Shown piece after piece: positions 13,590 through 50,188 of a DNA stretch of 64,000 nt (position 1 is the stretch's first letter; each line of letters opens with the position of its first letter). Source of the stretch: Hydrogenoanaerobacterium saccharovorans (GTDB taxonomy: Bacteria; Bacillota; Clostridia; Oscillospirales; Ruminococcaceae); assembly GCF_016901815.1 (NCBI RefSeq), contig NZ_JACSNR010000006.1, forward strand, positions 1 to 64,000, in the 5' to 3' direction. Below the pieces are notes generated by a model. The model was not told where the DNA came from. It saw only the letters and a list, made by a program, of their open reading frames with translations, and did not search any database. The position numbers and the translations under genes are program-made.

Positions 13590-13617
13590 AAACCAGTCAA
13601 AGGAAAGGAGACAGAGA

Positions 13618-13821
13618 ATGTTTTTGTATAAAGGAGATTGTTGGAAAAAAACCACTGTCATCCGAGGCATCCAGTATACTACCGTCAGCCATTATTCTGG
13701 AAACCGGGATATTTTTGAAAAGATGGGCGAATTGATTCTGGGCTCCTTTTGGGCATCAGAAAGTGACGAAATTACGGAGGAATCTTCATTGGTTTCTGGT
13801 ATAGATAAAAAGTCAGATTAA
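13618..13821 (+). CDS. 67-residue protein upstream of the recombinase
   Basis: Starts at ATG 13618 behind SD AAAGGAAAGGAG. Sequence MFLYKGDCWKKTTVIRG and a C-terminal acidic stretch; no domain recognised. Its place just before a large serine recombinase suggests an accessory of the element, possibly excision related, but nothing in the sequence shows this. Confidence 0.55.
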   Translation: MFLYKGDCWKKTTVIRGIQYTTVSHYSGNRDIFEKMGELILGSFWASESDEITEESSLVSGIDKKSD

Positions 13822-13855
13822 CGGTATTGTGTGTGTTGCAAAAGGAGGTCATAAC

Positions 13856-32640: not shown

Positions 32641-32667
32641 AAAGGCTCCCTTATGGGAGCCTTTTTA
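32641..32667 (+). terminator. Terminator with no gene before it
   Basis: AAAGGCTCCC-TTAT-GGGAGCCTTTTT. On the plus strand no gene ends here, so the gene it served may have been lost. Confidence 0.75.
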
Positions 32668-32870
32668 TCCTGCTTCATTTTCGACCCCATGTGTCACCTC
32701 TGTTTTTCGGAGGAAACCGCTCTTTAGAACAGGCCATAGAACTCGTCAAATTTGGCTGATTTGTGAATGGGATCTCGGTCTTGCTTGGCTGGCTAACCTA
32801 CAAAAATCCTGCCTTCCCAAACACTCCACAAAAACGACCAAACAGGGGCTGGCATGGGAGCGAGGGGGTT

Positions 32871-33233
32871 GTTTCCTTACCCTCCCGGCAAAAGCCGCAC
32901 ACAGGCCCACACAGGTGGGACAGCGAGGAGATCCAGCTTTGTCTCCATCTGATCTTCAGGATTTTTTCTTTTTTGGGTCATATCCCCAAAGTCCTTTTCT
33001 TTGTTTATGCGGCGCAGTTTTTATACAGGAGGCTCCATCCTTCGATCCCCCTAATAATGTTCTATAAAACATTATTAGGGGACATGGAAACCCTCTCTTT
33101 TCCTTTTGCTGCGATAGGATGTGCTTCCTCAAACTGCCTCAAAATTGGCCCAAACCGGTGTTGCTGTGGGTTTGGGTATTGTTTCTCTACCTCGACCAGG
33201 AAAGCCTCACACAAGCCCACACAGCCGGTCACG
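32871..33233. repeat. Pair of ~50-bp diverged direct repeats in a gene-free stretch
   Basis: 32871-32921 and 33182-33233 share the pattern TTTCYYTACC...GCC(G/T)CACACARGCCCACACAG. They bracket the palindrome at 33048-33081. No convincing gene is seen in 32668-33228; the repeats may be remnants of a duplicated gene end or of an origin region. Confidence 0.4.
33048..33081. repeat. Perfect 14-bp inverted repeat
   Basis: CCCCTAATAATGTT and AACATTATTAGGGG flank a 6-base loop (CTATAA). There is no T tract, so it is not a standard terminator. It could be a protein-binding site of the mobile element or paired ends of a small lost insertion. Confidence 0.7.
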
Positions 33234-33591
33234 CAGGGCGTTCCTGCCTGGCTTTCGTACCTGATGCTTTCTTCCTCTGTACATCCAGAGATATTTTCTC
33301 CATCTGCTGCTGGTAGAATTGCTCTACTGCTTCCTGAATCGGACGGATGGTGAAGAGTAGATTCCCATTTCGCTTTTGACCGTCCTTCGTGATGATGCTG
33401 GTCGACTCTGTGGTGATGAGTCCTCGCTCTTCCAACATTCGTACATACTTTCGCACTGTGTTGGGACTCATTCCGATGGCCTTCCCGATGGTTTTGAAAC
33501 TGGGCCAGCACTGATAAGTACTTCTGTCCTCGCAGAAAAGTAGGTAAGAATACACCGCCAGCTCTCCCGGTGACAGACCAAACAGGAACAC
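33229..33591 (-). CDS. Winged helix-turn-helix protein of a conjugative element
   Basis: About 120 residues. SPGELAVYSYLLFCEDR and TIGKAIGMSPNTVRKYVRML are the hallmark of a helix-turn-helix protein found at the replication end of clostridial conjugative elements. Homologous sequence (KNYFPVPNEVF) continues upstream of the only available start, GTG 33591, up to a TGA, so the original start was probably lost by mutation and the gene may be 5' damaged. Confidence 0.7.
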   Translation of the reverse strand: MFLFGLSPGELAVYSYLLFCEDRSTYQCWPSFKTIGKAIGMSPNTVRKYVRMLEERGLITTESTSIITKDGQKRNGNLLFTIRPIQEAVEQFYQQQMEKISLDVQRKKASGTKARQERPA

Positions 33592-33650
33592 TTCATTTGG
33601 TACTGGAAAATAGTTTTTGATTGGATCACGTTTTGGTCACTTCTGATGCT

Positions 33651-33863
33651 TCACTGAACCCCTCCCTCTGTATGCGGCTGCACCCAGGCAATGAACTGCT
33701 CCTTCGGGACAACCATCCGGTTGCCGATCTTCAGGGTTGGAAAATCCGCTTCGTGCATCAGCTCGTAAGCTGTGGATGGGGCGACACCCAACACCTTTGC
33801 CACCGTTTCGGCATTCAGGAACAGCGGAAGTTCCTCATAGCTTTTGTAGATTGACTCTTTCAT
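33651..33863 (-). CDS. Excisionase-type HTH_17 protein
   Basis: 70 residues from ATG 33863, which has SD GGAAAGGAGG. LFLNAETVAKVLGVAPSTAY and VPKEQFIAWV are the helix-turn-helix and wing of small excisionase-like proteins that bend att DNA and direct the integrase. No intact tyrosine integrase remains in the window, so it may be orphaned. 60 bases lie between it and the HTH gene downstream. Confidence 0.8.
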   Translation of the reverse strand: MKESIYKSYEELPLFLNAETVAKVLGVAPSTAYELMHEADFPTLKIGNRMVVPKEQFIAWVQPHTEGGVQ

Positions 33864-34020
33864 ACAACATTCCTCCTTTCCGACTGCAAAAGAAAAAGAC
33901 ATACATACCATTTCTGAGCAACACAACAACAGCACCTTGCTCGGTGCCTATCTGTGTGATTCAGTTTGGTATGTATGTCTGTTCGACTAAAAAATGCTGG
34001 CAGTGTACCAGCTATAGTTA

Positions 34021-34032
34021 GAACAAATGTTC
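34021..34032. promoter_or_regulatory. LexA-like box upstream of the excisionase gene
   Basis: GAACAAATGTTC, the reverse complement of the 12-mer at 9622-9633, lies about 160 bases upstream of the excisionase start. It fits GAAC-N4-GTTC. A TTGACA on the minus strand 25 bases further upstream may be its promoter. 33864-34218 is otherwise gene-free. Confidence 0.55.
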
Positions 34033-34218
34033 TTTATCTATGCTGTAACATGAAAGTTTTGATTTGTCAAAAGGATCTCATTCGGTGAGTAAGACTAAAA
34101 AAATCGTGAAAAACATGGCTTGCAGTTTCCCAGTAAAATGAAGCCATTTCATTTCTTTAAAAAGAAACCTCAAACCATGTTAATTGCAATCCAGTTTTAA
34201 CTTGGATAACTACCTTAG

Positions 34219-34553
34219 TTAGTTGTCATTGCCATTTACCACCCATATCTTTTTGAGTGGAATCAGCTCTTTTATCTCATCATCCATCTGATCGTAGTAA
34301 CGCAAGAACTCTTCACTGATTTCCTTATGCGTCCAAAGACGAATTTCAAAGAACTGTTTGGCGGTTTCATTGATAATGGAAGATTTGAAACCGCTCCATG
34401 ACACTAACAAGCCGTATTCTGCACCAAAGTTTTTCATCACACCGCCCATCCAAAACCATCCAATCCACTGGCGCGTCCGTGGACTTAACCTGAACACAGA
34501 TTTTGAGACTTCCAAAACCAAGCGTACCCGCAGATGCCAGAATATCCACACCT
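34219..34553 (-). pseudogene. Fragment of an Mrr-type restriction endonuclease, frameshifted
   Basis: Two frames together give the Mrr_cat nuclease end: GVDILASAGTLGFGSLKICV with VQVKSTDAPVD (D and QVK are the PD-(D/E)xK-like residues) in one, then GAEYGLLVSWSGFKSS and FFEIRLWTHKEI to the stop in the other. The shift lies near 34450. Everything N-terminal to GVDILA is missing, replaced by relaxase sequence in the opposite direction. Confidence 0.75.
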
Positions 34554-35599
34554 TTTACATTGACAAGGACCATGCTTATAATCACCGGATCTTCAATGCG
34601 GTCAGTTTCCAGGATCACCGGCACTACCACTCCAACAAGAGAAGCTACCATGAGATCCGCCGCACTAGTGACCGGATCTGAAAGGAGCGTGGTCTGTCCG
34701 TCATTGTCTCCGGCTGGGATAAGGGCAAGAGCTATATTGAGCATCGAGCAGAACAGAACATCACCAGCTACAAGGTGAAGTTCCGCTCCGTCATCAACCG
34801 GCTCCTGCCCGGCTGCACCGACCTGGAGGACCCGCTCCGTCGCCTTCAGCGGAAAGGGGATGAACTGAAATGGGACAAGTACATATCTGCCAGGACTCCG
34901 GGTCAGAAGCAGTTTACCCGTTTGAAAACCCTGGGCGCTGACTATGCCGAGGAAGCCCTGGCCACTCGGATTGTCGGAAGGCCCTGCCCCTCCCGCCAGC
35001 CGAAACAGCTCACCGGGAGACCCAGTTTACTCATCGACATCCAGAACAACATCAAAGCCCAGCAGAGCGCCGGCTACAAACATTGGGCAACCATCGAGAA
35101 CCTGATACGGGCAGCGGAAACGCTGCTTCCTGACGGGGCATGGCATTGGAAGTTTAGAGAAACTGTCTGAGCGGCGCAATGGAGTGGCAGCCACCGCAGG
35201 GTAAAGGCGGATCTCCGGGCAACCGAAAAGGAAATGGAGTGGCTGACCCTCACCATGAAGCACGCCGCCACCTATCGTCAGCTTCGCCCCTTGTATGACC
35301 AATACCGCCAGTCCAGGGACAAGGAGAAATTTCTCCGGGGGCATGAGAGTGAGATCATCCTGTTCGAGGCGGCGGCAAGGGAACTGAAACGGTTGAACGC
35401 CGTACCCCTGCCCGCTGCCCAGCGGCTCCGGGCCGAAATGGATGAGCTCACCGCCAGAAGGACCGCCCTGCAATCGGAATACAGGAAGGCTCAACAGAAA
35501 GAACGGGAGTACGACACCCTCAACCAAAACGTCCGTATCTTACTGGAACGATCAGAGGATGTTGTACTCCCGAAGGAAAGTTCGAATGAACTTGAATAA
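34548..35599 (+). pseudogene. Relaxase (mobilization nuclease) remnant, 5' truncated and frameshifted
   Basis: Reading plus, TFYIDKDHAYNHRIFNAVSF carries the relaxase H-x3-NH histidine motif, followed by HYHSNKRSYHEIRRTSDR, a TGA at ~34679, GKSYIEHRAEQN, ISARTPGQKQFTRLKTLG, and after a frame change near 35150 KEMEWLTLTMKHAATYRQ to the natural end NELE. These are consecutive pieces of a well-known clostridial relaxase. The N-terminal catalytic Tyr region is absent, and at least two lesions interrupt the rest, so it is inactive. Confidence 0.85.
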
Positions 35600-35608
35600 A
35601 CGAAATAA

Positions 35609-37351
35609 TTAGCCCAGTTGCCAACGGGCACTCTCGCTCTGGAGCTCCACCATACGGCGGTAGAGGCCTCCGCGCTCCATCAGCTCCGCAGGCGTACCCT
35701 GCTCGGCCACATGGCCGTTTTCCAGCACCACAATGTGGTCGGCTCCCGCCACAGTACGCATCCGGTGGGCAATAACCAGCACCGTCTTGCCTGTCAGCAG
35801 GCGGGAGAGCGCACCCTGCACCTTTGTCTCATTTTCCACATCCAGGCTGGCGGTGGCCTCGTCCAGCAGGACGATGGGGGCGTTCTTCAAAAGCGCCCGG
35901 GCGATGGAGATGCGCTGCCGCTCTCCGCCGGAGAGTTTTGCGCCGTTTTCCCCGATGGGAGTATTATATCCCTGGGGCAGGCGGCAGATGAACTCCCCGC
36001 AGTTGGCGGCCTCAGCCGCGGCCCGCACCTCATCGTCGGTGGCGCCTCGCTTGCCCAGACGGATATTCTCCATCACCGTGTCGTCAAAGAGCACCACATC
36101 CTGGAATACCATAGAGTAATCGGTCAGCAATGCCTCCGGGTCCACCGTGGAGATGTCCACGCCGCCTACCTTGATGCTTCCCTCTGTTACATCCCACAGC
36201 CGGGCAGCCAGTCGGGCGCAGGTACTCTTACCGGACCCGGAAGGACCCACCAGGGCAGTCACTTCGCCCTCCCGGGCGGTAAAGCTCACACCGTCCAGCA
36301 CTTTTTTCCTGTCATAGGCAAACCCCACATGGTCGAACTCAATATCGTAGCCCTTGGGCTGAAACACCTCCGCACCCTCAGCCGTGGGGGTGTCGTAGAT
36401 CTCGTTCATGCGGTCGGCGGATACTTGGGACACAAACATCTCAGCGATGAGAGCCAGGCTCTGGTCAAAAGGCGCATACATGCGGGTAATAACCAGCAGG
36501 AACAAAAACAGCAGCATGAAGTCGATTTGCCCGGAAAGAATCAGGCCGGCTCCCACCAGAATGGTGGTAGCTACCCCCAGGCGCATGATGACGCTGGCCG
36601 CATTGACGAAGATGCCGGTCCCCAGCTCGCCCTGGATGGTGACCTTCTCATGGTCGTCAATCTTCTGATTGAGCCCGGCCAGATAGCGCTCCTCCTGATT
36701 GGTGGCGCGGATCTCCCGGACATTTTCCAGAGCTTCCTGAATGCCGTCGGAGACGCGGATCGCGGCTTTTTTCGTCCGCTCAGAGGTCCGGGCGGAAATC
36801 CTCCGGGTGCCGAACAGCAGGCCAAAAGCCACCGGCACACCCCACAGGCAGGCGATGGCCAGCCGCCAGTCATACACCAGCAGGCACACCGCGATAATCG
36901 TCGTGGAGAGATAGGCACCGTACAGATAACCCAGCACATGGGACCAGACATGCTCCATGCGGTTCACATCGCCCATAATGGTCTCGGTCAGATCCGCCAG
37001 ATCCCGCTTGCCGAAGTAGCCCAAAGGCAGTTTGCGCAGCCGCTCCGCCAGACTGAGACGGGTGGATTTCACCTCGTTATAGACTAGTCCATAGGTGGCG
37101 TAGTACTGCTGAAGATGAGTCACAAAGGAAAGAATCAGGAATACAACCACCAGCCCGAGCAGGAGGGCTGCGTTGGGCAGCGGCTGGTCATCTGTAAAGG
37201 TTCCCATCAGGCTGTACATCAGCAGATACAGGATGCTCATGCCGCCCATGACGACAAGGTTGACAATGACCGTCCAGAAGGTTCCCTTTTTGACATTTTT
37301 GACGCCCTGGTCGGTGAGGGCGTATTTCCTCTGAAAGTTTTTGCTGAACAT
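35609..37351 (-). CDS. ABC exporter-fold transporter, permease-ATPase fusion (second of pair)
   Basis: 580 residues from ATG 37351 (SD GAGAGGGGTGA). Six membrane segments in the first ~310 residues, then an ATPase with Walker A GPSGSGKST, signature LSGGERQ and Walker B VLLDEATASLD. With the gene just upstream it forms a heterodimer. Pairs of this kind serve as drug exporters or, as for YbtPQ and IrtAB, as metallophore importers; the nearby metal genes and shared operator make the second reading attractive but unproven. Confidence 0.9.
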   Translation of the reverse strand: MFSKNFQRKYALTDQGVKNVKKGTFWTVIVNLVVMGGMSILYLLMYSLMGTFTDDQPLPNAALLLGLVVVFLILSFVTHLQQYYATYGLVYNEVKSTRLSLAERLRKLPLGYFGKRDLADLTETIMGDVNRMEHVWSHVLGYLYGAYLSTTIIAVCLLVYDWRLAIACLWGVPVAFGLLFGTRRISARTSERTKKAAIRVSDGIQEALENVREIRATNQEERYLAGLNQKIDDHEKVTIQGELGTGIFVNAASVIMRLGVATTILVGAGLILSGQIDFMLLFLFLLVITRMYAPFDQSLALIAEMFVSQVSADRMNEIYDTPTAEGAEVFQPKGYDIEFDHVGFAYDRKKVLDGVSFTAREGEVTALVGPSGSGKSTCARLAARLWDVTEGSIKVGGVDISTVDPEALLTDYSMVFQDVVLFDDTVMENIRLGKRGATDDEVRAAAEAANCGEFICRLPQGYNTPIGENGAKLSGGERQRISIARALLKNAPIVLLDEATASLDVENETKVQGALSRLLTGKTVLVIAHRMRTVAGADHIVVLENGHVAEQGTPAELMERGGLYRRMVELQSESARWQLG

Positions 37352-37367
37352 ATTCTTCACCCCTCTC

Positions 37368-39161
37368 TCACTGTTCGCTGGTGATCTTCCACTGGACTGC
37401 CTTGTTGTAATCCGCCCACATCCGGGCATAGAGGCCGCTGGAGGCAGTCAGCTCCTGATGGGAGCCCTGCTCCACGATGCGTCCCTCCTCCAACACCAGG
37501 ATCTTGTCCGCACCCACCACAGTAGACAGGCGGTGGGCAATCATGATAACGGTGCGGCCACGGGTCAACTCGGTAAACGCCTTTTGGATCAACGCCTCGT
37601 TCTCTGGGTCAGCAAAGGCGGTGGCTTCATCGAGCACAACGATGGGCGCATCCTTCAGGATGGCCCGGGCCAGGGCGATGCGCTGCTGCTCGCCGCCGGA
37701 GAGATAAGTCCCCTCGGAGCCGATCAGGGTGTCCATGCCCTGGGGCAATTTCTCCAGAATGTCCTCACACTGGGCGGCCTTCAACGCCGAGAGCACCTGC
37801 TCCCGGGTGGCGTTGGGACGGGCGGCCCGGACATTCTCCAAAATGGAGGCTTTGAACAGGCGGCTGTTCTGGAACACAAAGGCGATCTGATCCATGAGTA
37901 CATGGGGATCGATCTGCCGCACATCCACGCCGCCCACCTTCACCACGCCGGAGGTGGCGTCCCAGAAGCGGGGGATCAGACTGGCAGCGGTGGTCTTTCC
38001 GCCGCCGGAGGGCCCTACCAGGGCTACGGTCTGTCCCGGCTCCGCTGTGAAGGACACATGGGAGAGGGCAGAGGTCTGGGCCCCGTCGTATGTAAAGCTC
38101 ACATCTTCAAATTCTACACGGCTGCTTCCGGGGGATTGAGGGTGTTCAGGCACTTTCAGTTCAGGAGCGCACATGACCTGGTCAATGCGCCCCAGCGCAG
38201 TACTGGCCAGCATCATACCGGATGCGGCAAACATGATCTTGGCAAGCGCGGTGGAAATGATGGCGGAGAACACCGCGTAAAAGGCGAAGTTTGTAATAAA
38301 TCCCGCAAAGTCACCGCCGGCCAGAGCTCCGGGAGCCAGGAAAAGAGCCGCAGGCACCAGGAACACAAAAGCGCCCTCAGTAAAGGTCAGATTGATGGAC
38401 TGGGGCACACGGCACACATCGCCCTGATAGTGCTCCGCTTTGGAACTGTAATCCTCAATGGCCTCCTGAAAGGCTTTGAAGGAATAAACGGTCTGCTGGA
38501 AAATCTTGACCACCGGAATGCCCCGGACATACTCGGTGCCCGCCTTGGTCATACGGTCCTGGGCTGCCTGATACTCTGCCATCAGTTTGGCGTTTTTGCC
38601 GCCCATCATAGAGAACATAGCGATAATGGAAATCACCGCCGCCAGCAGGCAGGCCGCGCCCATCCGCCAGTCAAAGACGAACATCAGCACCAGCATGGAC
38701 ACAAACAGGGTGATGGTGCCTACGATGTCCGCCAGATTATGGGCAAGCAGGGTCTCGGTATCGGCCGCCGCCGCATCCAGCCGTCCCCGGATGAGGCCGG
38801 AGGCATTGGAGTCGAAGAAGCCCAGCGGGGCTTTCATCACATGGGCAACGCCCTGCTTGCGAATGTTAGCCGCTGTGCGGAAGGCCGCCAGATGGGTACA
38901 CATCAATCCTGCAAAGTACAGGACGATGCCGGCCACCGCAAAGCCAAAAGCCAGCCAGCCGTATTGAGCGATGTCCTTCGCCCGGGTCCAGTCCGGCGCC
39001 ACAGCGATCAGATCCCGGGCCACCAGCCAGATACAAATGTAGGGTGCCATGCTCAACAGCATGGATACCGCCGACAGAGCCAGCCCCAGGAAGGTCAGCC
39101 TCTTGTGACTGCCTGCGTAGTCCAGCAGGACCGCAACATCACTCTTTTTCTTCTGCTTCAT
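37368..39161 (-). CDS. ABC exporter-fold transporter, permease-ATPase fusion (first of pair)
   Basis: 597 residues; SD AAGGAGG. Six membrane segments, Walker A GPSGGGKTT, signature LSGGEQQR, Walker B VVLDEATAFAD (D-loop altered from the usual SLD, as in asymmetric heterodimers). 16 bases separate it from its partner gene. Preceded by an AGTTAG palindrome and a TetR gene in the same direction. Confidence 0.9.
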   Translation of the reverse strand: MKQKKKSDVAVLLDYAGSHKRLTFLGLALSAVSMLLSMAPYICIWLVARDLIAVAPDWTRAKDIAQYGWLAFGFAVAGIVLYFAGLMCTHLAAFRTAANIRKQGVAHVMKAPLGFFDSNASGLIRGRLDAAAADTETLLAHNLADIVGTITLFVSMLVLMFVFDWRMGAACLLAAVISIIAMFSMMGGKNAKLMAEYQAAQDRMTKAGTEYVRGIPVVKIFQQTVYSFKAFQEAIEDYSSKAEHYQGDVCRVPQSINLTFTEGAFVFLVPAALFLAPGALAGGDFAGFITNFAFYAVFSAIISTALAKIMFAASGMMLASTALGRIDQVMCAPELKVPEHPQSPGSSRVEFEDVSFTYDGAQTSALSHVSFTAEPGQTVALVGPSGGGKTTAASLIPRFWDATSGVVKVGGVDVRQIDPHVLMDQIAFVFQNSRLFKASILENVRAARPNATREQVLSALKAAQCEDILEKLPQGMDTLIGSEGTYLSGGEQQRIALARAILKDAPIVVLDEATAFADPENEALIQKAFTELTRGRTVIMIAHRLSTVVGADKILVLEEGRIVEQGSHQELTASSGLYARMWADYNKAVQWKITSEQ

Positions 39162-39180: not shown

Positions 39181-39198
39181 AGTTAGTAATAACTAACT
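39181..39198. promoter_or_regulatory. AGTTAG-type palindrome upstream of the ABC pair
   Basis: AGTTAGT-AATA-ACTAACT, 18 bp with 7-bp perfect arms, 19 bases upstream of the ABC start. It matches the palindromes at 44556-44574 and 48366-48385 and is probably an operator of one shared regulator. Confidence 0.75.
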
Positions 39199-39219: not shown

Positions 39220-39837
39220 TCATCCCCCCATCAATTTCAGCCATCCACCCGTGTAGAAAGTGCGGAACTGTTCTACATCCCGCAGGGCCTGCTCTTTCGG
39301 CATATCATGTACGATGATCTCAAAAAGGCCGCCCATCATTCCGCTGGCGATGATGTGGCAAAGAGACTGGCTCAGTTCCGGGACCTCCCGGCCCAGGCGG
39401 CGGAGAACATCCATGTAACGGAGCGTGTACTCCACCTCCACCTCTACCATGTTGTGGACAAAGTGCTCGTAGCTGGTGCCCTCGGCCTTGCACAGCAGCA
39501 GCTTCACCGGCTCCCGGTGGTCGCAGATATAGTCCACCATCCAATTCACGCACTGGCTGGACTCCAGCCCCATGTGCTCCGGCTGTTCCTGCTCAGGCAG
39601 TTCGGAAAAGGAAGTCTGCGCCTCCATGAACCGCCCCATCAAAGCAGCCGCGTGCGGCTCCACGATGGAGGCAAAAAGCGCCTCCTTGCTGGAGAAATAA
39701 CCGTAGAACGCACCGGTGGTTACCCCGGCATTTTTCACGATCTGCCGCAGAGAAGCCCCTTGAAAGCCCTTGTCCAGAAATTCGGCCATGGCCGCCTCAT
39801 GGATTTTTTCCAGCGTGGCGTTAGACTTTTCTTCCAT
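39220..39837 (-). CDS. TetR/AcrR-family repressor
   Basis: 205 residues from ATG 39837 (SD AAGGAGAG). The N-terminal helix-turn-helix is typical: KIHEAAMAEFLDKGFQGASL, RQIVKNAGVTTGAFYGYF, SSKEALF. The C-terminal ligand domain is unassigned. It is cotranscribed with the two ABC genes and preceded by its own palindromic operator, so it probably represses them in the absence of the ligand. Confidence 0.92.
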   Translation of the reverse strand: MEEKSNATLEKIHEAAMAEFLDKGFQGASLRQIVKNAGVTTGAFYGYFSSKEALFASIVEPHAAALMGRFMEAQTSFSELPEQEQPEHMGLESSQCVNWMVDYICDHREPVKLLLCKAEGTSYEHFVHNMVEVEVEYTLRYMDVLRRLGREVPELSQSLCHIIASGMMGGLFEIIVHDMPKEQALRDVEQFRTFYTGGWLKLMGG

Positions 39838-39849
39838 AGACTCTCTCCT

Positions 39850-39877
39850 TATAACAGCGTTATATAACACTGTTATA
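39850..39877. promoter_or_regulatory. 28-bp palindromic TetR operator
   Basis: TATAACAGCGTTAT and ATAACACTGTTATA are inverted copies with one mismatch in 14. The site lies 12 bases upstream of the tetR start and is the size expected for two TetR dimers or one extended site. Confidence 0.85.
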
Positions 39878-39915
39878 ATACGACTGAAGCAGTAGTTTGT
39901 CAAGTGGAATACGAA

Positions 39916-39944: not shown

Positions 39945-42041
39945 TCAGGAGACTTTATTTTGTTTTGGCTGGGGCAGTGCAGTCATGCTGTGGAGGCTTA
40001 CGCCAAGGGTAGACAGGTTGTGGAGCATGGCGGAGGTGGTTGGAGGCAGGATACCTGCCACGCCAAGACCGATCAGTGCCCCGTTGAACCCGATGACAAA
40101 GCGGTAGTTGTTCTGGATGCGGCACATCAGACCTATGGCCAGCTGCCGCAGGCGCACCAGCTCCCACAGACTGTCGGCGGCAATGGTGATGTCAGCGATC
40201 TCCCTGGCAATGGCGGCCCCGTCGCTGATAGCGATACCGGCGTCCGCCTCAGAGAGGGCCGGAGAGTCGTTGATGCCATCCCCCACCATCAGTACGGTGT
40301 GCCCCTCCCGCCGCATAGCAGCCACATACTCTGCCTTATCCGCTGGGAGAACCCCGGCCCGGAAGTCGTCTACCCCCAGTTGCTCTGCAATGGAAGCAGC
40401 GGTACGGGGGCTGTCCCCGGTCAGCATCACCAGATTTTTTACGCCCAGATTCCGCAGAGCAGAGAGGACCGCCCGTGCCTCCTCCCGCAGAGGATCGGAG
40501 ATGCAGATCACGGCGGAGAGTACCCCGTCGATGGCAAGATAGAGTTGGGAGAACTCTGAAGGCAGCGCGTCGAACTTGGTCCGCTCCTCAGCAGGAACTA
40601 CGCACTTCTCATCCTCGAAGATGAAGTGGGCGCTTCCAATGCGTACCCGTTCCCCGTCCACTGAGCTTGCGATGCCGTGGGCCACCAGATACTCAACCTT
40701 GCCATGGCGCTCCTCGTGGCGCAGCCCCCGACGCTCGGCCGCCTCCACCACGGCGTTGGCCATGGAGTGAGGGAAATGTTCTTCCAAACAGGCGGCAAGA
40801 CGCAGCATTTCCGCTTCTTCCTTTCCGTTGAAGGGGACGACGCAGGCCACCCGGGGGCGGGCATGGGTGAGGGTGCCGGTCTTGTCAAAGACAATAGTAT
40901 CGGCGCTAGCCACAGCCTCCAGGAACTTGCCTCCCTTGACCGTGATGTGCTCCCGCCCCGCCTCACGCATGGCAGAGAGTACCGCCAGGGGCATGGCCAG
41001 CTTCAGGGCACAGGAGAAGTCCACCATGAGCACCGACAAGGCCCGGGTCAAGTTCCTGGTGAGCGCAAGGCTCACCAGGCTGCCGGCAAAGGTATAGGGT
41101 ACCAGCTTGTCTGCCAAGTTGGATGCTTTGGCTTCGGCGGCGGACTTCATCTGCTCTGAATGCTGGATCATCTCCACGATCTGGTCATAGCGGCTCTGGC
41201 CAGAGGCCTGCTTTACCTCCAGCACGGACTCGCCTTCCTCCACCACAGTGCCAGCGTAAACTGTACCGCCGGGCCCCTTGGCTACGGGGACGGACTCACC
41301 GGTGAGGGATGCCTGGTTGACGGTGATCTCCCCTTCCACCACCACGCTGTCCAGGGGAATGACGCTTCCGGCTCGAACCACCACCCAATCGCCGGGCCGG
41401 ATCTGACCGATGGGGGTAAGTACTTCGCCAGCCTCGGTTTTCAGCCACACCCGATCCACGTGGAGAGACAGGCTCTCTGCCAGATCGGCCACAGACTTCT
41501 TTCGTGTCCAATCCTCCAGCAGTTCCCCGATCTCCAGCAGGAACATGACCATGCCGGCGGTATCAAAGTCCCTGCGGAAGACGGAGATCCCGATGGACAA
41601 AGCATCCAACATCTCCACCTTGATCTGACGATGTCCCAGACAGCGCAGACCTCTGTGCAGAAAGGGGATCATGTGCCAAACAATCCGGGCAATCCGCAGC
41701 GGGGCGGGCAAAAACAGGGCAGCTGCTGCTTTTACCGCCACCTTGCCTACCAGTTTCTCTTGGAACTCCCGGTTCAGAGTCCGTGTGCTGTGGTCGGACA
41801 GGGTGACGGACGACTCCGCCCCGGCCCAGGTAAACGCACCGAGGGCGGAGAGGACGGCTTCCCGGTCTCCTGTATAGGTCACGATGACGCAGCAGGTGCG
41901 CTCATGGACCACGGCCTCCCGGATCCAGTGCTGCCCCTTCAGCCAGGTTTCCAGCAGATCCGCCTGGTGGATCGTCATGTTTTTTTGCCGGAGCCGCAGA
42001 CGCATCCGGCCCCGGCTCTCGTGTACGATGGTTGCTCTCAT
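39945..42041 (-). CDS. P1B-type metal ATPase, FezB-like
   Basis: 698 residues. TGES (247-250), phosphorylation motif DKTGT (D386), TGDSPRTA, and GDGINDSPALSEADAG are all intact. The membrane metal site reads DFSCALK (S343-C344) instead of CPC or SPC, so it is not a classical copper, zinc or cobalt pump. The N-terminal ~70 residues have an HMA-like fold pattern without CxxC but with an Arg-rich start (HESRGRMRLRLRQ). These traits, and the DUF6110-like neighbour, recall the P1B-6 ATPases (FezB) that load iron into ferrosomes. Only about six membrane segments are evident. Iron as substrate is inferred. Confidence 0.9.
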   Translation of the reverse strand: MRATIVHESRGRMRLRLRQKNMTIHQADLLETWLKGQHWIREAVVHERTCCVIVTYTGDREAVLSALGAFTWAGAESSVTLSDHSTRTLNREFQEKLVGKVAVKAAAALFLPAPLRIARIVWHMIPFLHRGLRCLGHRQIKVEMLDALSIGISVFRRDFDTAGMVMFLLEIGELLEDWTRKKSVADLAESLSLHVDRVWLKTEAGEVLTPIGQIRPGDWVVVRAGSVIPLDSVVVEGEITVNQASLTGESVPVAKGPGGTVYAGTVVEEGESVLEVKQASGQSRYDQIVEMIQHSEQMKSAAEAKASNLADKLVPYTFAGSLVSLALTRNLTRALSVLMVDFSCALKLAMPLAVLSAMREAGREHITVKGGKFLEAVASADTIVFDKTGTLTHARPRVACVVPFNGKEEAEMLRLAACLEEHFPHSMANAVVEAAERRGLRHEERHGKVEYLVAHGIASSVDGERVRIGSAHFIFEDEKCVVPAEERTKFDALPSEFSQLYLAIDGVLSAVICISDPLREEARAVLSALRNLGVKNLVMLTGDSPRTAASIAEQLGVDDFRAGVLPADKAEYVAAMRREGHTVLMVGDGINDSPALSEADAGIAISDGAAIAREIADITIAADSLWELVRLRQLAIGLMCRIQNNYRFVIGFNGALIGLGVAGILPPTTSAMLHNLSTLGVSLHSMTALPQPKQNKVS

Positions 42042-42095
42042 GCAAGTCTCCTTTCATGAAAAAAGGAGCCGTTTTCCAGCTCCCTTCCGCAGTTT

Positions 42096-42359
42096 TTAGG
42101 CTTCCTGACCTTCCACCTGAGCCTCGGCTTCCTTGGCATCCCGGGCCTCGTTGATGTCCTTGGCAGCGGCCAGAATGTCGGCGGCATTCTCCTGAACAGA
42201 GGTAACGGTCTCCATTACGCTCTCCTTCATCCGCAGACCTGCGGCCGTGATGTGAGTATAAGCCTTCTTGGCATCTTTGCTTGTAAGCAGCTTTATGCCG
42301 GCAGAGCCAAACAGGGCGCCGCCTACAAAGCAGGCCAGTCTGACATAGTGTTTCATCAT
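42096..42359 (-). CDS. Small DUF6110-like membrane-associated protein (FezA-like position)
   Basis: 87 residues. A hydrophobic glycine-rich N-terminal segment (VRLACFVGGALFGSAGIKLL) is followed by a charged amphipathic helix (KEAEAQVEGQEA end). This is the layout of DUF6110 proteins, which sit next to P1B ATPases in clostridia; the comparable small protein of ferrosome loci is needed for the iron organelle. It starts behind SD GAAAGGA and lies 54 bases before the ATPase gene. Confidence 0.75.
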   Translation of the reverse strand: MMKHYVRLACFVGGALFGSAGIKLLTSKDAKKAYTHITAAGLRMKESVMETVTSVQENAADILAAAKDINEARDAKEAEAQVEGQEA

Positions 42360-42385
42360 GAGAATCTTTCCTTTCTGCTATGTGA

Positions 42386-42466
42386 TTATTTGTGTTTGTA
42401 GCCTGTGATCATCACCATGATCATGCAGATCACAGCGCCCCAGGCCCAGAAGCGATGTTGTTTCAT
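42386..42466 (-). CDS. 26-residue membrane peptide (DUF6219-like)
   Basis: Too short for most gene callers but with a near-perfect SD (AGGAGGAGATC) ahead of ATG 42466. Sequence MKQHRFWAWGAVICMIMVMI plus TGYKHK: one membrane segment with basic ends. I recall a family of ~25-residue peptides of this pattern (RFWAW...TGYKHK). It ends 27 bases before the DUF6110-like gene, in the same direction, and is likely part of that transcript. Confidence 0.7.
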   Translation of the reverse strand: MKQHRFWAWGAVICMIMVMITGYKHK

Positions 42467-42561
42467 TGAGATCTCCTCCTGTTCGGAAACAAGCTCGTTC
42501 CGCCGTGTATTGAGATATTATAGCAGACGGGATGCTCCATGTATCACCGAATCAGACGGGA

Positions 42562-43446
42562 TTATGCCGGTTCAGACATTTTTCGATACACAGTTGGCGA
42601 CATGCCATACTGCCGCCGGAAGACGGCGGAGAACTGGCTGGCACTGCTGTATCCCACGGACTGGGCTACCCCCAGCACGCTAAGGGAGGAGTCCCGCAGC
42701 AACTCCGCTGCGCGTTCCATCCGCCGCTGCTGCAGCCAGGTGTGGACCGGCAACCCGTACAGGCGGCGGAACCCCTCCTTGAATGTCGTTGCAGAGACGC
42801 AGGCACGGCGGCTCAAGTTCAAGATGGAGAGAGGTTCGTCCAGATGTGCTTCCATGTATTGACGGGTTTCTGTCAGAATCCGGGTCATCTCCTGATCCAG
42901 CACCGGGGCCATTTCCGCCGCTGGTTCCTCCGGGGCGGAGAGCAGATACAGTAGTTCTACCGACTTCCATACGCACCAGCGCGCTCGCTCGCTCCGGGGC
43001 AAACGATCCAGATCAGCAAAGACCGCCTGGCTCCAGTGAGAGGGACCCTCCACGGCGCAGCCGCCCCGACTGACCATCCACCGCCGCACTTGATCCGTGT
43101 TCAAGTTCAAACCGCCTAACAGGCTGCAAATAGTTTTCAGACTCTCCCGGGCGCCCCGAGCATCCACCGCCACCAGAACACCCTTTAAGCCGGTCTCCAC
43201 TCTGGCATCGGACAGATCAGAAATGTCGGTGAGGAGAAGCACCTGCCGGGTACCGAGCCGCAGAACTGTACCATCCCGTCGAGTCAGGGTGATTCCTCCG
43301 GCGAGGCAGAACAATACCTCAAAGTGCAGAGGCTCCAGCCGAAGGGGCAAAGGGAATGTCTTCTCGCGCAGGGAGAACAGGCAGGCTCGCGCACCAGGCA
43401 TCACTTGTGTCCATTCTCCCTGTTCTGACAAACATTCTGCCAGCAT
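42562..43446 (-). CDS. AraC-family regulator
   Basis: 294 residues, SD GAGGAGG. N-terminal ~150 residues are a cupin-like sensing domain with no assigned ligand; the C-terminal 100 residues carry both AraC helix-turn-helices (LSILNLSRRACVSATTFKEG, and SVLGVAQSVGYSSASQFSAV followed by FRRQYGMSPTVYRK). Regulators of this type (e.g. YbtA) often control metal or siderophore transport. It lies between the HMA gene and the ferrosome-like genes on the same strand. Confidence 0.92.
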   Translation of the reverse strand: MLAECLSEQGEWTQVMPGARACLFSLREKTFPLPLRLEPLHFEVLFCLAGGITLTRRDGTVLRLGTRQVLLLTDISDLSDARVETGLKGVLVAVDARGARESLKTICSLLGGLNLNTDQVRRWMVSRGGCAVEGPSHWSQAVFADLDRLPRSERARWCVWKSVELLYLLSAPEEPAAEMAPVLDQEMTRILTETRQYMEAHLDEPLSILNLSRRACVSATTFKEGFRRLYGLPVHTWLQQRRMERAAELLRDSSLSVLGVAQSVGYSSASQFSAVFRRQYGMSPTVYRKMSEPA

Positions 43447-43484
43447 CCGCTTGCCTCCTCTCCATTGATCTGCGTTTCAGATAC

Positions 43485-43733
43485 TTATCGGCCAAACAGC
43501 CCTTTCTTCTGCCAAGGCTCCTTCCGAATCTCCCCCACATCATAGCCAGTTGAGGAAATAGCCTCCCGTAAAGCCTCTTGATCCAGTTCAGCTTCCGTGA
43601 TTACCACAGTCTCTTTTTTACTCCGAGATGAGGTGACCTTCTTCACCGGAAAGGCTTTCCGCACCGCATCGTTCACATGGCTCTCACACATACCACACAT
43701 CATGCCGCCTACTTGAATTGTGTATTTCCACAT
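43485..43733 (-). CDS. Heavy-metal-associated (HMA) domain protein
   Basis: 82 residues from ATG 43733 (SD GGAGGAAC). MWKYTIQVGGMMCGMCESHV contains the MxCxxC site (GMMCGMC) of copper-chaperone-like HMA domains, extended by a basic tail (EPWQKKGLFGR) with a Cys-free end. It may deliver or sense metal for the neighbouring ATPase. 38 bases separate it from the AraC gene. Confidence 0.88.
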   Translation of the reverse strand: MWKYTIQVGGMMCGMCESHVNDAVRKAFPVKKVTSSRSKKETVVITEAELDQEALREAISSTGYDVGEIRKEPWQKKGLFGR

Positions 43734-43862
43734 CTTCTGTTCCTCCATTCGTCGTAAAGTCCGTTTCACTGGTTCCAGCATATACGGTACACTTCATCAA
43801 AAACATTCCAATGGTTGAATGGCAAGTCAAATGCCGTACTCGACCGCACTATTTTCCACTAT

Positions 43863-44531
43863 TTATGAGATGCCACCCAGTTCTTCATTTTCTAAAAGGC
43901 TGCTGTTTCCCCGCATCGCCAGCACGCAAAGCCAATGCTTTTTCGCATTCCGATTTAGGATGACCTCAGAAAAACCTGCCTCGGTGAGAAAACGGGCAAG
44001 TTGGTCTCCATCGAAGATCCTCATCCCATCAATGACAGAAAGCCACTTGCTGGCGTGGGGATCTTCTCCATCCGACTCATTGACGATCAGAAAGATGCCG
44101 CCCGGCCGCAGAATTCGGTACACCTCTCGGAAGCTCTCCGTGGGACCAGGCCAGAAATATACCGTTTCAAATGCGGTTACCAAATCAAATGCGCCATCCT
44201 CGAAGGGAAGGCAAGACACCTCTCCCTGTATGATACGGCAGCGACCGGCTTGCAGCCCCTTGCGGTTCACACTCCTGGCCTTTTCCACAGATACTTCTGA
44301 ATAGTCCAAGGCGGCGACAGTCGCGGCAGGGTATTTTCGCAAAAGGGCTCGGATATTCCGCCCACCACCGCAGCCCAACTCCGCGATCTCGGTGGGACCT
44401 GTTTCAGGCAAATAGCTAAGGCCCCAATCCGCAAGGGCAGCATGAGCACGATTCATGCTGCCCACCATGCACCTACCCAGCAATCCTTCGGGCTTGCGGG
44501 TATTGTTGAAAAAAGCCCTTAATATTCCCAT
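43863..44531 (-). CDS. Class I SAM-dependent methyltransferase
   Basis: 222 residues, SD GGAGGCAG. Motif I IAELGCGGGRNIR (near 50), ALDYSEVSVEKAR, and post-I FDLVTAFETVYFWPGP are typical of small-molecule methyltransferases of the UbiE/type 11 group. Its promoter region holds the AGTTAG palindrome. Similar enzymes accompany ABC pairs in metallophore loci, which could explain its place here; substrate unknown. Confidence 0.88.
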   Translation of the reverse strand: MGILRAFFNNTRKPEGLLGRCMVGSMNRAHAALADWGLSYLPETGPTEIAELGCGGGRNIRALLRKYPAATVAALDYSEVSVEKARSVNRKGLQAGRCRIIQGEVSCLPFEDGAFDLVTAFETVYFWPGPTESFREVYRILRPGGIFLIVNESDGEDPHASKWLSVIDGMRIFDGDQLARFLTEAGFSEVILNRNAKKHWLCVLAMRGNSSLLENEELGGIS

Positions 44532-44555: not shown

Positions 44556-44585
44556 GGTTAGCTATAACTAACTTCATTTATTATA
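44556..44585 (-). promoter_or_regulatory. Promoter with AGTTAG-type palindrome ahead of the methyltransferase
   Basis: On the minus strand TATAAT (44580-44585) is followed five bases later by AAGTTAG-TTATAG-CTAACC (44556-44574). The operator would cover the transcription start, as expected for a repressor. Same consensus as 39181-39198 and 48366-48385. Confidence 0.75.
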
Positions 44586-46674: not shown

Positions 46675-46977
46675 TTATATCATACTTTTTGTAAAGTTAC
46701 TTGCGGCAGCTTTTGCCGCTTTACTGGCGGCTCTCCGGCGTTCCTCGCTGTATGGAGCGGTCAGGCGGAAAGAGAAGCGGTCTTTCTCAATGTCAAACTC
46801 CATGCAGTCCGTTTCTGGGTCTGCGTCGATCTATCAGCATACATCGGGGTGCTGCTCGGCGTAGGTAACAAGCCGCTTCTTCAAGGCGGTGTTGTGGGGG
46901 CGGATATGGATCAGCGGCTCTTTCTCGTCAAACCAAATGTAGGTGGTCGTTTCTCGCTTGGTAAGTCCTGTTCTCAT
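46675..46977 (-). pseudogene. Small conserved mobile-element gene with two adjacent stops
   Basis: MRTGLTKRETTTYIWFDEKE and the tail RFSFRLTAPYSEERR match a ~95-residue protein common in clostridial elements. Codons at 46831-46836 are TGA-TAG, breaking an otherwise intact 101-codon frame. Confidence 0.75.
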
Positions 46978-47049
46978 AAACGCTCATTTCTGCGCCCTCG
47001 TTTGGAAAGAGCGACATTTTTGAGTGATTTTTCCCGGCTCTTGACTTAG

Positions 47050-47729
47050 GGAAACTGTGGGTTTTCAAATAGAAACCGCCCCGATGAACCATTCTTCGTC
47101 CGGGCGGCTCCTATCGCATAATTCCATTTTTCCCGGTTTTTGACTGTTAAACATAAATTAGCTCATACTATGTGTTCTCCTTTCTGTTCGGCGGCAGGGG
47201 CAGTTGCTTGGCTTGCTCTTGCTCCTGCTGCCCTTTCCATTGTCTGCGTTTTTTCCATATACGCTCCATCTTCGCCATCCTCCATTCCTTCCATATCCAC
47301 ATTTTGGGGATCCGCTGCCTCCACCTCCATCATCCCTCCCGACAGAGCGGTAAGGCCGCTAACGCAGGCCTTCAGGAAAGCGGTCACCTCCTGTTCCATA
47401 GGGACAGATATTGACACTCACCCCCGTTTCGTTCCTGGTGATGTACTGGAAAAAGGGATAGACCTGGGGCGGGCAGACCGCGTTCCCCGGGGGTTTCATG
47501 CACAGCACCAAGTTGTCCGTGTCCTCGGTCATGCGGAGGACTCATTCGGGCTCGGCACACCATAAGATGCGTCCGCCCATTTTGAAGGGATCCCATGAGC
47601 CATTCCTCCCAGCTCAGGTTCAGCGCCGCTTTCTCGGGACGGGGCTAATTCTGCCCCAGATCACTTGGACCGCCAGGTCGGAGGACGAGGATTTGTCCTG
47701 AAAGGCCGCCGGAGCTAGGGATAGTCCGC
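47050..47729. other. Decayed mobile-element sequence without an intact gene
   Basis: Short minus-strand frames (around 47163-47417 and 47384-47596) change frame into each other, e.g. text such as YPFFQYITRNETGVSVNICP continues out of frame. They look like one or two degraded genes of the conjugative element; I cannot name them. Confidence 0.4.
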
Positions 47730-48126
47730 TCACTCGTATAAGCGGACTATTTCAAATCCTGCCGCTAGGTCCAATCCGCCTATGCCGGAAAAGAAGCTCG
47801 CACGGGTAAACCGGTCAGACATGGGACTGGTCCTCGTCATCCTCACAGTCCACATAGAAGACGCCAGCTCATATAGCTCCAGGGCCTTTAGTTGAGAAAG
47901 ATCAGCCTTGTCGCCGAACACCAGATAGCGACCGGAGATGCTCCAGCGGTCAAACATCTGGTCAGCGATCTCGCAATGCCGACAGGCGATGTCGATCAGG
48001 TTCTGCATGTCCTGGTGATTCTTGGTTTTACCAGTGAGAAAGGATCACTGATACAGCATGGACTTTCTCGTCGATGTGGGCTTCGTAGGATTTTTCCTTA
48101 ATAACACACAACTTTTCCTGTTCCAT
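47730..48126 (-). pseudogene. 5' remnant of a DNA cytosine methyltransferase gene
   Basis: Starts MEQEKLCVIKEKSYEAHIDE, shifts frame near 48045, continues DMQNLIDIACRHCEIADQMF and KALELYELASSMWTVRMTRT, and enters SFFSGIGGLDLAAGF, the SAM-binding motif I (F-S-G-x-G-G) of C5 methyltransferases, before stopping. The catalytic PCQ region and the rest are gone. Confidence 0.75.
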
Positions 48127-48292: not shown

Positions 48293-48385
48293 TTGCACGC
48301 CAACCATAACAGTGATATGATATCAGTCAGAAATACAGGCGCAGGGCGCATTTTTTCAGAGGACCAAGTTAGTCATATCTAACTT
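48293..48385 (+). promoter_or_regulatory. Promoter and AGTTAG-type palindrome of the CydDC-like ABC pair
   Basis: TTGCAC (48293-48298) and TATGAT (48316-48321) are 17 bases apart. Downstream, AAGTTAG-TCATAT-CTAACTT (48366-48385) has perfect 7-bp arms and lies 43 bases before the ABC start. It is the third copy of the shared operator. Confidence 0.7.
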
Positions 48386-48427
48386 TATTCTCTGGGCTCT
48401 GTGTCAGGAAAGAAGGGATATGTTGCC

Positions 48428-50188
48428 ATGCTTTTACTCAATCGCACCCTGCTCCGGATGGCCCGGGGATTGTGGGGATGGATCCTTGCCATTGCAGGCC
48501 TGAAGCTGCTGACCCTTGTCGGTACTGCGACCTTTGCCGGAATTGTATCCGGGTATCTGGGGAACCTTACTTCGCCTCAGCTCACCCTGGCAGATGCCCG
48601 GCATGCCATACTGGGAGCACTGTTCACTGCCCTGTGGATGCTGGGCACTGAACTGCTCACCGGCGAGGCCGAATACCGATGCACTGCCAAAGCCAGGCAA
48701 TCATTGCGCACTTCCATCTTCTCCAAAATACTTGAGCTGGATGTGGGCAATATTGAAGTGATCGGCCCGTCCTCCGCCATCACCTCCGCCGTGGATGGAG
48801 TGGAATCCATGCAGGTCTATTACAGCAAGTATCTTCCGGGACTGATCTACTGCCTTACCGCCCCAGTTTATCTGTTTTTCCGGTTGAGGGAGATCTCCTT
48901 TCTCCCGGCTGTGCTGTTGCTGGCCGCTTCGGTGGTGCTGATGCCGGTAAACAACCTTTTCCGCCAGCACATCGAGTCTCTGAAAACGGGATACTGGAAA
49001 AGCCTGGAACAACTCACTGGCTATTATCTGGAAAGTGTCCGGGGTCTGACCACCCTCAAACTCTTTGACCGGGATGAGGATCGTACTCTGGGGCTTGAGG
49101 AACGCTCCCGGGATTTCAATGCCCGCATCATGGATGTAATGAAGGTAAACTTTGCCTCCTTCCTTGTTACAGACGGACTGATCTATGGCTCCATGACCGC
49201 TGCGGTATGCCTGACAGCCTGGCAGCTGACGCAGGAACAGGTCACCTTTGGCCAATCCCTCATGTTCCTGATGCTGTCCTTTGGCTTTTTTGGCTCGGTG
49301 CGCCAGCTGATGACCTCTACCCACGCAGCGCTGGCCGGAGTATCGGCCGCTGACAAGATGGAGCAGCTGCTGGCCATCGACACCACTCGTCCCTACAATC
49401 CCCAGCTCCCACCGGAAGTTCCCTCCTATGAGGGGATCCGGCTGGAGGGAATCCGCTTTTCCTATCCCCACCGGGGCACCACCCTCGAAAACCTTTCCCT
49501 GGACATTCCCAAGGGACAGGTTACGGCTCTGGTGGGGCTTTCGGGCAGTGGAAAATCCACCATTGCCGGGATTCTCATGCGTTTTTATGACCTGGACCAG
49601 GGGCGCTGCCTGCTGGAAGGCCGGGACTATATCAGTATGACGCCGGAAGAGCTGCGCCGGCGGGTTGCTATGGTTCCGCAGACGGTAAATCTCTTTACCG
49701 GCACCCTGGCAGAAAACCTGCGCATCGCTGCCCCGGATGCCACCGATGACCAGCTGCTGGAAGCACTGGGCCAGGTGCGACTGTTGGACTGGGTACTGGC
49801 CCAACCCGAAAAACTGGAAACACCTGTGGGAGATGCCGGAAGCCGTCTTTCCGGTGGACAGCGGCAGAAGGTGGGCATAGCCCGGGCGCTGCTGAGCCAG
49901 GCCGAATACCTGATCCTGGACGAAGCCACTTCCAGTGTGGATCTGGACAGTGAACGGGAAATCTGGAACTGCATTGATGAGCTGGCCAAAAGCCGGACGC
50001 TGGTTCTGATTTCCCACCGGCTTTCCAGCATCCGGAACGCTCACCGGATCTATGTCCTGGAACAGGGACGCATATCCCAGCAGGGATGTCATCCGGAGCT
50101 GATGAATCAGGGCGGCCTGTATCGTCGGCTGGTGGAAGAACAGGCCCAGTTGGAGCAACTGGGCGAGGAGGAGCTTTGCCATGAATAA
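48428..50188 (+). CDS. CydD-like ABC transporter (permease-ATPase)
   Basis: 586 residues from ATG 48428. Six membrane segments to ~300, Walker A GLSGSGKST, signature LSGGQRQ, Walker B LILDEATSSVD. The ELDVGNIEVIG and VYYSKYLPGLIYCLTAPVYL patterns in the membrane domain fit the CydDC group. CydDC exports cysteine/glutathione or handles haem; the operator shared with metal genes hints at a metal or redox role. Overlaps the next gene by 8 bases. Confidence 0.88.
   Translation: MLLLNRTLLRMARGLWGWILAIAGLKLLTLVGTATFAGIVSGYLGNLTSPQLTLADARHAILGALFTALWMLGTELLTGEAEYRCTAKARQSLRTSIFSKILELDVGNIEVIGPSSAITSAVDGVESMQVYYSKYLPGLIYCLTAPVYLFFRLREISFLPAVLLLAASVVLMPVNNLFRQHIESLKTGYWKSLEQLTGYYLESVRGLTTLKLFDRDEDRTLGLEERSRDFNARIMDVMKVNFASFLVTDGLIYGSMTAAVCLTAWQLTQEQVTFGQSLMFLMLSFGFFGSVRQLMTSTHAALAGVSAADKMEQLLAIDTTRPYNPQLPPEVPSYEGIRLEGIRFSYPHRGTTLENLSLDIPKGQVTALVGLSGSGKSTIAGILMRFYDLDQGRCLLEGRDYISMTPEELRRRVAMVPQTVNLFTGTLAENLRIAAPDATDDQLLEALGQVRLLDWVLAQPEKLETPVGDAGSRLSGGQRQKVGIARALLSQAEYLILDEATSSVDLDSEREIWNCIDELAKSRTLVLISHRLSSIRNAHRIYVLEQGRISQQGCHPELMNQGGLYRRLVEEQAQLEQLGEEELCHE

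Follow-up and report, generated by a model that had tools for sequence, protein, structure and literature searches.

The question raised by this locus is whether a metal-pump gene cluster of a clostridial bacterium is a ferrosome operon. Ferrosomes, membrane-bound granules of iron phosphate that store iron, have only recently joined the known bacterial organelles. In Clostridioides difficile they need FezA and FezB, which are repressed by Fur, and a 2025 review calls for work on their presence in further pathogens and in commensals (PMC12574912). The stretch analysed here, called the window throughout, comprises 64,000 nucleotides of Hydrogenoanaerobacterium saccharovorans (assembly GCF_016901815.1, 2.35 Mb; contig NZ_JACSNR010000006.1, positions 1 to 64,000). 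A prediction made from its letters alone (hereafter the original prediction) placed a ferrosome-like locus, borne on a mobile island, at 39945-43733. Judging from its genes, their kinship and their operator, this locus is probably a fez (ferrosome) operon of the Clostridia type that belongs to the iron regulon of the host. New in this locus are the operator regulon, a putative YbtPQ-like transporter pair that belongs to it, and a conserved 26-residue microprotein.

The pump and its DUF6110 partner

The fez block consists of five co-directional genes, all on the minus strand. In 5' to 3' order on that strand, these are a small S-adenosylmethionine methyltransferase, first gene of the block (43863-44531; Methyltransf_11, 6.1e-22), an HMA-domain protein with an MMCGMC motif (43485-43781; PF00403, 4.3e-08), an AraC-family regulator (42562-43446; HTH_18, 3.4e-24), a DUF6110 protein (42096-42359; PF19605, E 3e-29) and, 54 bp downstream, a P-type ATPase of 698 residues (39945-42041; TIGR01525, 4.1e-142). 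They are followed by a TetR gene and a pair of ATP-binding cassette (ABC) half-transporter genes (39161-35609). Open reading frames (ORFs) and Pfam matches agree with the genes of the original prediction, whose end coordinate, 43733, is the second ATG of the HMA gene; a 26-codon ORF at 42386-42466 was absent from its gene list.

SCALK is a hallmark of FezB-type P1B-6 ATPases. As originally noted, the translation carries DFSCALK instead of CPC or SPC; this site lies in transmembrane helix 4 (TM4), and a GRxR motif stands near the N-terminus (MRATIVHESRGRMRLRLRQK). TM6 (AMLHNLSTLGVSLHS) contains the HN pair described as a hallmark of P1B6 pumps (PMC9374683), and on these three motifs the protein is a P1B-6 ATPase. 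D341, S343, C344, K347, P351, H674 and N675 are invariant over 31 aligned relatives, HN is present in 109 of 110 full-length ATPases, and [GNPE]RxR occurs within the first 70 residues of 98 of these, against 11 of 889 other 70-residue segments of the same proteins. The predicted structure has a P-type ATPase fold (mean predicted local distance difference test, pLDDT, 78; predicted template modelling score 0.66), the nearest structures being Cu and Zn P1B pumps; residues 1-70 form two beta-beta-alpha units without CxxC in the model. The DUF6110 protein is modelled as a transmembrane helix (residues 2-25) followed by a long helix (residues 28-84), with a mean pLDDT of 81.9.

For comparison, 117 pump loci were pooled from genome searches, public plasmid and phage records and genome contigs. 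They are partly redundant (L035 and L143 are one contig), and the TM4-motif scan of genome contigs contributed the best 80 of at least 593 confirmed stretches (597 matched), ranked by similarity to a segment of C. difficile type. Counts over the loci are therefore not independent samples, and the ATPase family is larger than the sample. The DUF6110 gene lies just upstream in 69 of the 79 TM4-motif loci with an ATPase frame called (none was called in the eightieth, L114), and 3 of the 10 others end too early. Seen from the other side, a D-x-S/C-C-x-x-K/R ATPase adjoins DUF6110 in 29 of 32 DUF6110 places, the window not counted, and in a further place (L046) the contig breaks off once such an ATPase has begun. 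Among the genomes of the class, 29 of 391 have a DUF6110 match (G440 stands just under the curated cut-off, with 25.5 of 26 bits), so iron storage in ferrosomes may be common among Clostridia, though little studied. An AraC-like gene is present in 20 of 116 loci and, measured between gene centres, stands 1.7-2.6 kb upstream of the ATPase in 18 of the 20; relatives of the HMA protein are present in 11 of 116, one of which (L099) is divergent from feoA. As a side observation, four Methanobrevibacter metagenome-assembled genomes (MAGs; L129, L138, L141, L152) encode DUF6110 proteins with SCAIK pumps.

The fezAB genes of C. difficile are CD630_05910-05920 according to PMC11651100. In the C. difficile genomes L078 and L079, a genome-wide scan for the SCALK codon pattern gives one match apiece, with a DUF6110 gene upstream of the matching ATPase; because the match is single in each genome, these pairs are presumably fezAB. 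The window ATPase shares 52.6% identity with that of L079 over 698 aligned positions, and the DUF6110 protein 45.2% with its partner over 84. In the ATPase tree, the window and both C. difficile sequences fall within one clade (48 of 66 rows; Shimodaira-Hasegawa-like approximate likelihood-ratio support 99), the rows comprising outgroups and 62 of the 117 ATPases, with one sequence entered twice. The ATPase is thus placed in a clade with the C. difficile FezB counterpart, as the original prediction would have it, and we read the DUF6110 protein and the ATPase as FezA and FezB. The C. difficile fezXAB set likewise has its DUF6110 membrane protein directly upstream of the P1B-6 ATPase; relative to it, the window adds the AraC, HMA, methyltransferase and microprotein genes, and carries a different operator.

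The operator and the iron regulon

That operator, GTTAG-N6-CTAAC, occurs in perfect form at seven sites in the whole genome. Three of these lie in the window, namely (i) in front of the fez block, 25 bp from its methyltransferase gene (44557-44572), (ii) upstream of the first half-transporter gene of the adjoining pair, ABC1 (39182-39197), and (iii) 17 bp before an ABC gene of a second pair, which begins at 48401 (48368-48383). Of the others, one precedes a feoA-feoA-feoB cluster, one stands just before feoB, one precedes a DUF3793-like-flavodoxin cluster and one a ZIP gene, this last site having an aldehyde dehydrogenase-like gene about 0.2 kb away on its other side; the feo, DUF3793, flavodoxin and ZIP identities were read by eye from the protein sequences, without a profile search.

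Over the 117 loci, the operator gave 24 matches in fez leaders and 81 outside them. By comparison, none of 29 permuted arms exceeded 5 matches, and no other spacing between 0 and 12 exceeded 3; since these controls are nearly empty, the operator is a true motif, the permuted-arm control covering the loci and not the perfect sites of the genome. Matches in leaders exceed the 8.9 expected from the rest (P 2e-5). With mismatches allowed, the reversed control gave more matches than the operator (20+14 vs 14+12 at up to two mismatches; 30 vs 15 per strand at up to one), and only perfect sites were therefore used. The "metal-type operators" of the original prediction are accordingly real, being borne out by the perfect sites of the genome and by the permuted-arm control. 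In other loci, the operator also precedes genes read by eye as feoA, feoB, DUF3793 and DtxR-family genes. In Agathobaculum butyriciproducens (L122), a cultured commensal relative, it directly precedes the HMA gene, after which the AraC, microprotein, DUF6110 and ATPase genes follow in that order. A FeoB motif is present in 24 of 116 loci, a count with no measured baseline (about 1 in 116 would be expected with two FeoB per 3 Mb). As the operator is common to the fez block and to feo and flavodoxin genes, the block, judged by its sites, is part of the host iron regulon.

The transporter pair behind the second site was compared with known structures. Among half-size bacterial structures of the PDB, ABC1 (37368-39161, minus strand) is closest to YbtP (6p6i_A, 9.9e-95), with IrtA second and MsbA lower, and ABC2 (35609-37429, minus strand; Pfam ABC_tran/ABC_membrane) to YbtQ (6p6i_B, 3.2e-88), above Sav1866 and YbtP; eukaryotic double transporters outscore these half-size matches. 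The pair thus resembles YbtPQ and IrtAB, ABC1 being the YbtP/IrtA-like and ABC2 the YbtQ/IrtB-like half, and is a putative YbtPQ-like siderophore importer; it differs from those systems in that siderophore synthesis genes were not seen among the window neighbours scanned. ABC proteins in general are common (at E 1e-5 in 51 of 116 loci), so only strong matches were counted: 9 of 116 loci (L045, L047, L096, L107, L113, L127, L132, L144 and L149) have close relatives of at least one half (phmmer, above 500 bits) in the neighbourhood of the pump.

Under the ferrosome reading, the following order of events may be proposed. When iron is scarce, a metalloregulator would leave the GTTAG-N6-CTAAC sites; our guess is the one DtxR-family protein of the host genome (G000, contig C23, about 171.4 kb), which also has three Fur-family matches. 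Derepression would lead to Feo uptake, the YbtPQ-like importer, the iron-sparing flavodoxin and the fez block being made together. FezB could then load cytosolic Fe(II) into a membrane compartment, which FezA, with its transmembrane helix and long helix, would help to gather and shape, and a later flood of iron would be stored there. The HMA protein might hand on metal, the AraC regulator might tune the operon, and the 26-residue transmembrane peptide could serve the membrane complex of FezA and FezB as a small subunit or as a regulator. Given the co-regulation with iron uptake, storage after starvation would fit better than detoxifying efflux.

The 26-residue microprotein

The ORF missing from the original list (42386-42466, minus strand) lies between the AraC and DUF6110 genes and encodes a 26-residue peptide with a single transmembrane segment, MKQHRFWAWGAVICMIMVMITGYKHK, with a Shine-Dalgarno sequence (AGGAGGAG) in front. 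Between it and the AraC gene, a TATAAT read by eye (42517-42522, minus strand) resembles the consensus and may be the -10 box of a promoter. An iterated profile search of small ORFs upstream of the 117 pumps found the microprotein in 18 loci, window included, always with 26 residues and in most cases with a clear Shine-Dalgarno sequence. M1, K2, H4, A8 and G22 are invariant, and C14 and T21 nearly so. By the Nei-Gojobori method, the proportion of non-synonymous changes is below that of synonymous changes in 153 of 153 pairs (mean 0.26 vs 0.84), and the genes of the window and of L090 differ by 12 synonymous changes and 1 non-synonymous change; the microprotein is under purifying selection. It represents one new conserved part of an otherwise known kind of fez locus.

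At E <1e-9, the microprotein is encoded in 11 of the 391 class genomes, every one of which also belongs to the 29 genomes matched by DUF6110. Four of them (G000, G049, G353 and G313) had supplied sequences for the search profile; the hypergeometric probability is 5e-14 for all eleven and 2e-9 for the seven found by the search only, both values ignoring relatedness. In five genomes (G440, G387, G445, G288 and G171), the gene stands far from fez with a Shine-Dalgarno sequence of its own, and in G306 it follows the pump gene at a distance of 27 bp. A wider profile, run on 25 DUF6110-bearing genomes, found it in G027, G387 and G440; a weak match in G094 (E 0.034) was dropped as noise, as were nine weaker matches of the first search (E 0.0016-0.0098), mostly inside long frames. 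The peptide was not detected in C. difficile CD160 and HC132, nor in the similar genome G356. A second copy in G049 (locus L036, contig C7) sits with a DUF6110 gene and without a P1B ATPase match within 18 kb; the DNA of a nearby ABC gene is 79% identical to that of ABC2 of the window.

Among the ferrosome and fezB papers surveyed, none has such a peptide as its subject by title, and none was seen among the papers surveyed that combine ferrosomes with microproteins, small membrane proteins or KdpF, which is no proof of absence from print. Sarcolipin is an example of a small peptide binding a P-type ATPase. KdpF, a 30-residue peptide of the P-type ATPase KdpFABC (PMC3618439), is comparable in being a very short peptide with a single transmembrane segment that is co-encoded with its pump; no relation in sequence is claimed. 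By analogy, the microprotein might be an overlooked third membrane part of clostridial ferrosomes, which would bind FezB or FezA and control pumping or organelle assembly, a tentative proposal to which we give a little under an even chance. Its gene would then lie immediately upstream of fezA, immediately downstream of fezB, or by itself elsewhere in genomes with DUF6110, and it would provide a small handle on how the pump is controlled.

Competing explanations and the surrounding DNA

Several points weigh against a ferrosome operon of the C. difficile type. Concerning regulation, no Fur-type box is present in the 1500-bp leader of the window, unlike in C. difficile, where a Fur-box-like TGATATAAATTATCA stands upstream of the pair; the operator of the block is 2.5 kb upstream of the pump, at the head of a longer block. 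Within 1500 bp of the pump, 18 of the 117 loci have a perfect operator, 15 a Fur-type box (at most two mismatches) and 31 either, leaving 86 with neither, the window among them. Concerning gene content, FezX of C. difficile was not identified, since a comparison of L078 and L079 gave no conserved small ORF to which the name could be attached, and two DUF6110 places (L043, and L036, the second copy in G049) are without an ATPase match in the stretch scanned. A DUF4405-type FezC, such as that reported in D. magneticus (PMC10979944), is absent from the Pfam matches of the block proteins and the other ORFs scanned; because it lies outside the C. difficile set, which PMC11533511 names fezXAB, FezC is not counted as a defining component of Clostridia-type operons. 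Searches for the microprotein gave no match in 18 of the 29 DUF6110 class genomes or, with the wider profile, in 21 of the 25, both C. difficile genomes included. Finally, the tree was a quick search without bootstraps, and the named FezB proteins of D. magneticus, R. palustris and S. putrefaciens are not among its rows.

The alternative that survives best concerns origin and is compatible with the ferrosome reading: the genes would have newly arrived on a conjugative element, which we consider fairly unlikely. A relaxase fragment (34775-35170) adjoins the ABC1/ABC2 pair, with 50-52% identity to plasmid relaxases in its best rows, and 17 of the 21 records it matches are typed conjugative; the frame behind it (35234-35599) has no NCBIfam match. 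DUF6110 is patchily distributed and is found in neither of two same-genus genomes, but one of these (G002) is 88% complete and its DNA matches the window at 32664-34555 (86%) and within ABC2 at 35557-36191 (97%), so that its missing DUF6110 may be an assembly gap. Similarly, L127, which is filed as a Blautia MAG (Lachnospiraceae), has an ATPase within the small clade of the window but may be a misbinned contig. Third-position G+C is low in the HMA (0.54) and methyltransferase (0.57) genes and reaches 0.65 in the DUF6110 gene, whereas the ATPase, ABC1 and ABC2 genes, at 0.74, are in line with ten other genes of the same genome (mean 0.73). Base composition was rejected as a sign of transfer, the block being G+C-rich within the window but eight other stretches of the genome having values of 0.54-0.60.

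The mobile island on which the original prediction set the block was not recovered. The window does contain, after a tRNA-Thr gene, an A+T-rich stretch (590-15541) with a mobilizable element (0.7-15.5 kb) that encodes an SNF2 helicase, type III restriction-like proteins, AbiU2, MobC/NikA, a relaxase (12222-13589) and a large serine recombinase, the recombinase and relaxase part occupying 10.3-15.5 kb. This element, about 20 kb from the fez block, is separated from it by purA, purB, purF and purC (17.9-22.9 kb), and only the one relaxase fragment adjoins the block. Neither an integrase nor a complete relaxase was found among the ORFs scanned at 15.6-63.8 kb, and no such genes were found enclosing the block, the scan not extending to every ORF of the window; a motif scan for both was also empty, which counts little since it missed the relaxase at 12222-13589. 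Of the proposed transferability, what stands is transfer as a possible history, in view of the patchy distribution and of plasmid-borne relatives elsewhere.

Related pumps are indeed encoded on plasmids of Deinococcus (with DUF6110), Azospirillum (a six-gene cluster with an adjoining iron ABC transporter) and Arcobacter, which makes movement of the family plausible; the window copy is not shown to be mobile. The Azospirillum cluster is alike in its P1B-6 ATPase with SCALK and HN, the small YtxH protein before it and its HMA-type proteins. With the R. palustris fez operon, which has six genes, RPA2333-2338 (PMC12016538), it was compared by gene number only. The Azospirillum and Arcobacter clusters differ from the window in lacking a DUF6110 match, and their ATPases share 37-38% identity with that of the window. 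Separately, the conjugative plasmid pORIO2 of Cereibacter azotoformans (L077) encodes a P1B-6-like pump with DYACPVKL in TM4 (ACPVK for SCALK) together with FeoA and TonB/siderophore-receptor genes. Carriage by phages was considered and rejected: the "Bacteriophage sp." records MT835525, MT836292 and MT838294 carry the ATPase at 50-59% identity and are taken as bacterial contamination, because MT835525 holds galactokinase- and UvrD-like genes of chromosome type (read by eye). The loci L068, L069 and L070, unverified "Bacteriophage sp." records from human faeces, carry fez-type genes, L068 at least with bacterial chromosome genes.

A second alternative concerns function. DUF6110 is related to mycobacterial PacL (DUF1490) and typically paired with P1B6 ATPases (PMC9374683; kinship also in PMC13043812), and such pairs have been proposed as PacL-like platforms for metal efflux (PMC9374683, PMC13043812), a further point against an organelle. 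The DUF6110 protein would then cluster the pump in foci of the plasma membrane, and toxic metal would leave the cell with no compartment being filled. The modelled transmembrane helix plus long helix suits such a role, and PacL1-CtpC of Mycobacterium tuberculosis, a zinc efflux system, also combines a small protein of this architecture with a co-encoded P1B6-like ATPase that has HN in TM6. However, PacL and CtpC are characterized by a DUF1490 protein with a C-terminal metal-binding motif and a CPC pump, whereas the window encodes DFSCALK without CPC and a DUF6110 protein ending in EAEAQVEGQEA, without a D/H-rich metal-binding tail. Furthermore, the window pair groups with that of C. difficile, and the operator, being common to feoA-feoA-feoB and flavodoxin, implies that the block is expressed when iron runs short and not when metal is in excess; by tying the FezAB of a gut-type bacterium to Feo, flavodoxin and a siderophore-importer-like pair, and so to iron, it argues against an efflux platform, which we regard as improbable. 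The weakest alternative, homeostasis of manganese or of divalent metals broadly, with an MntR-like Mn sensor at the operator and a pump for Mn(II) or a mixture of metals, would suit the ZIP gene and the single DtxR-family protein, which count against the ferrosome reading insofar as the metal of the operator is deduced from its genes, but it is very improbable in view of the operators at feoA-feoA-feoB, at DUF3793-flavodoxin and at the siderophore-importer-like pair, and of the FeoB motif near so many pumps.

Other features flank the fez operon as we read it. The TetR-family regulator (39220-39903, minus strand; TetR_N, 5.2e-15) more likely starts at the ATG at 39837 (MEEKSNATLEKI), and a palindrome read from the sequence, ATAACAGCGTTATATAACACTGTTAT (39851-39876), is a candidate TetR site; similar TetR proteins stand beside the same ABC pair in L127 (77% identity) and L045 (47%). 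The second pair of ABC half-transporters (48401-50188 and 50181-51860, plus strand), assigned by Pfam, lies behind the third operator, and no siderophore importer is among the PDB matches listed for its first member. A stretch of 420 bp (46727-47147) is conserved at 81-86% with G353 and G049 and has no match in Rfam (gathering scores) or among plasmids. A short frame without an NCBIfam match (47730-48008, minus strand) ends in FFSGIGGLDLAAGFEIVRLYE, which resembles the start of a DNA cytosine methyltransferase.

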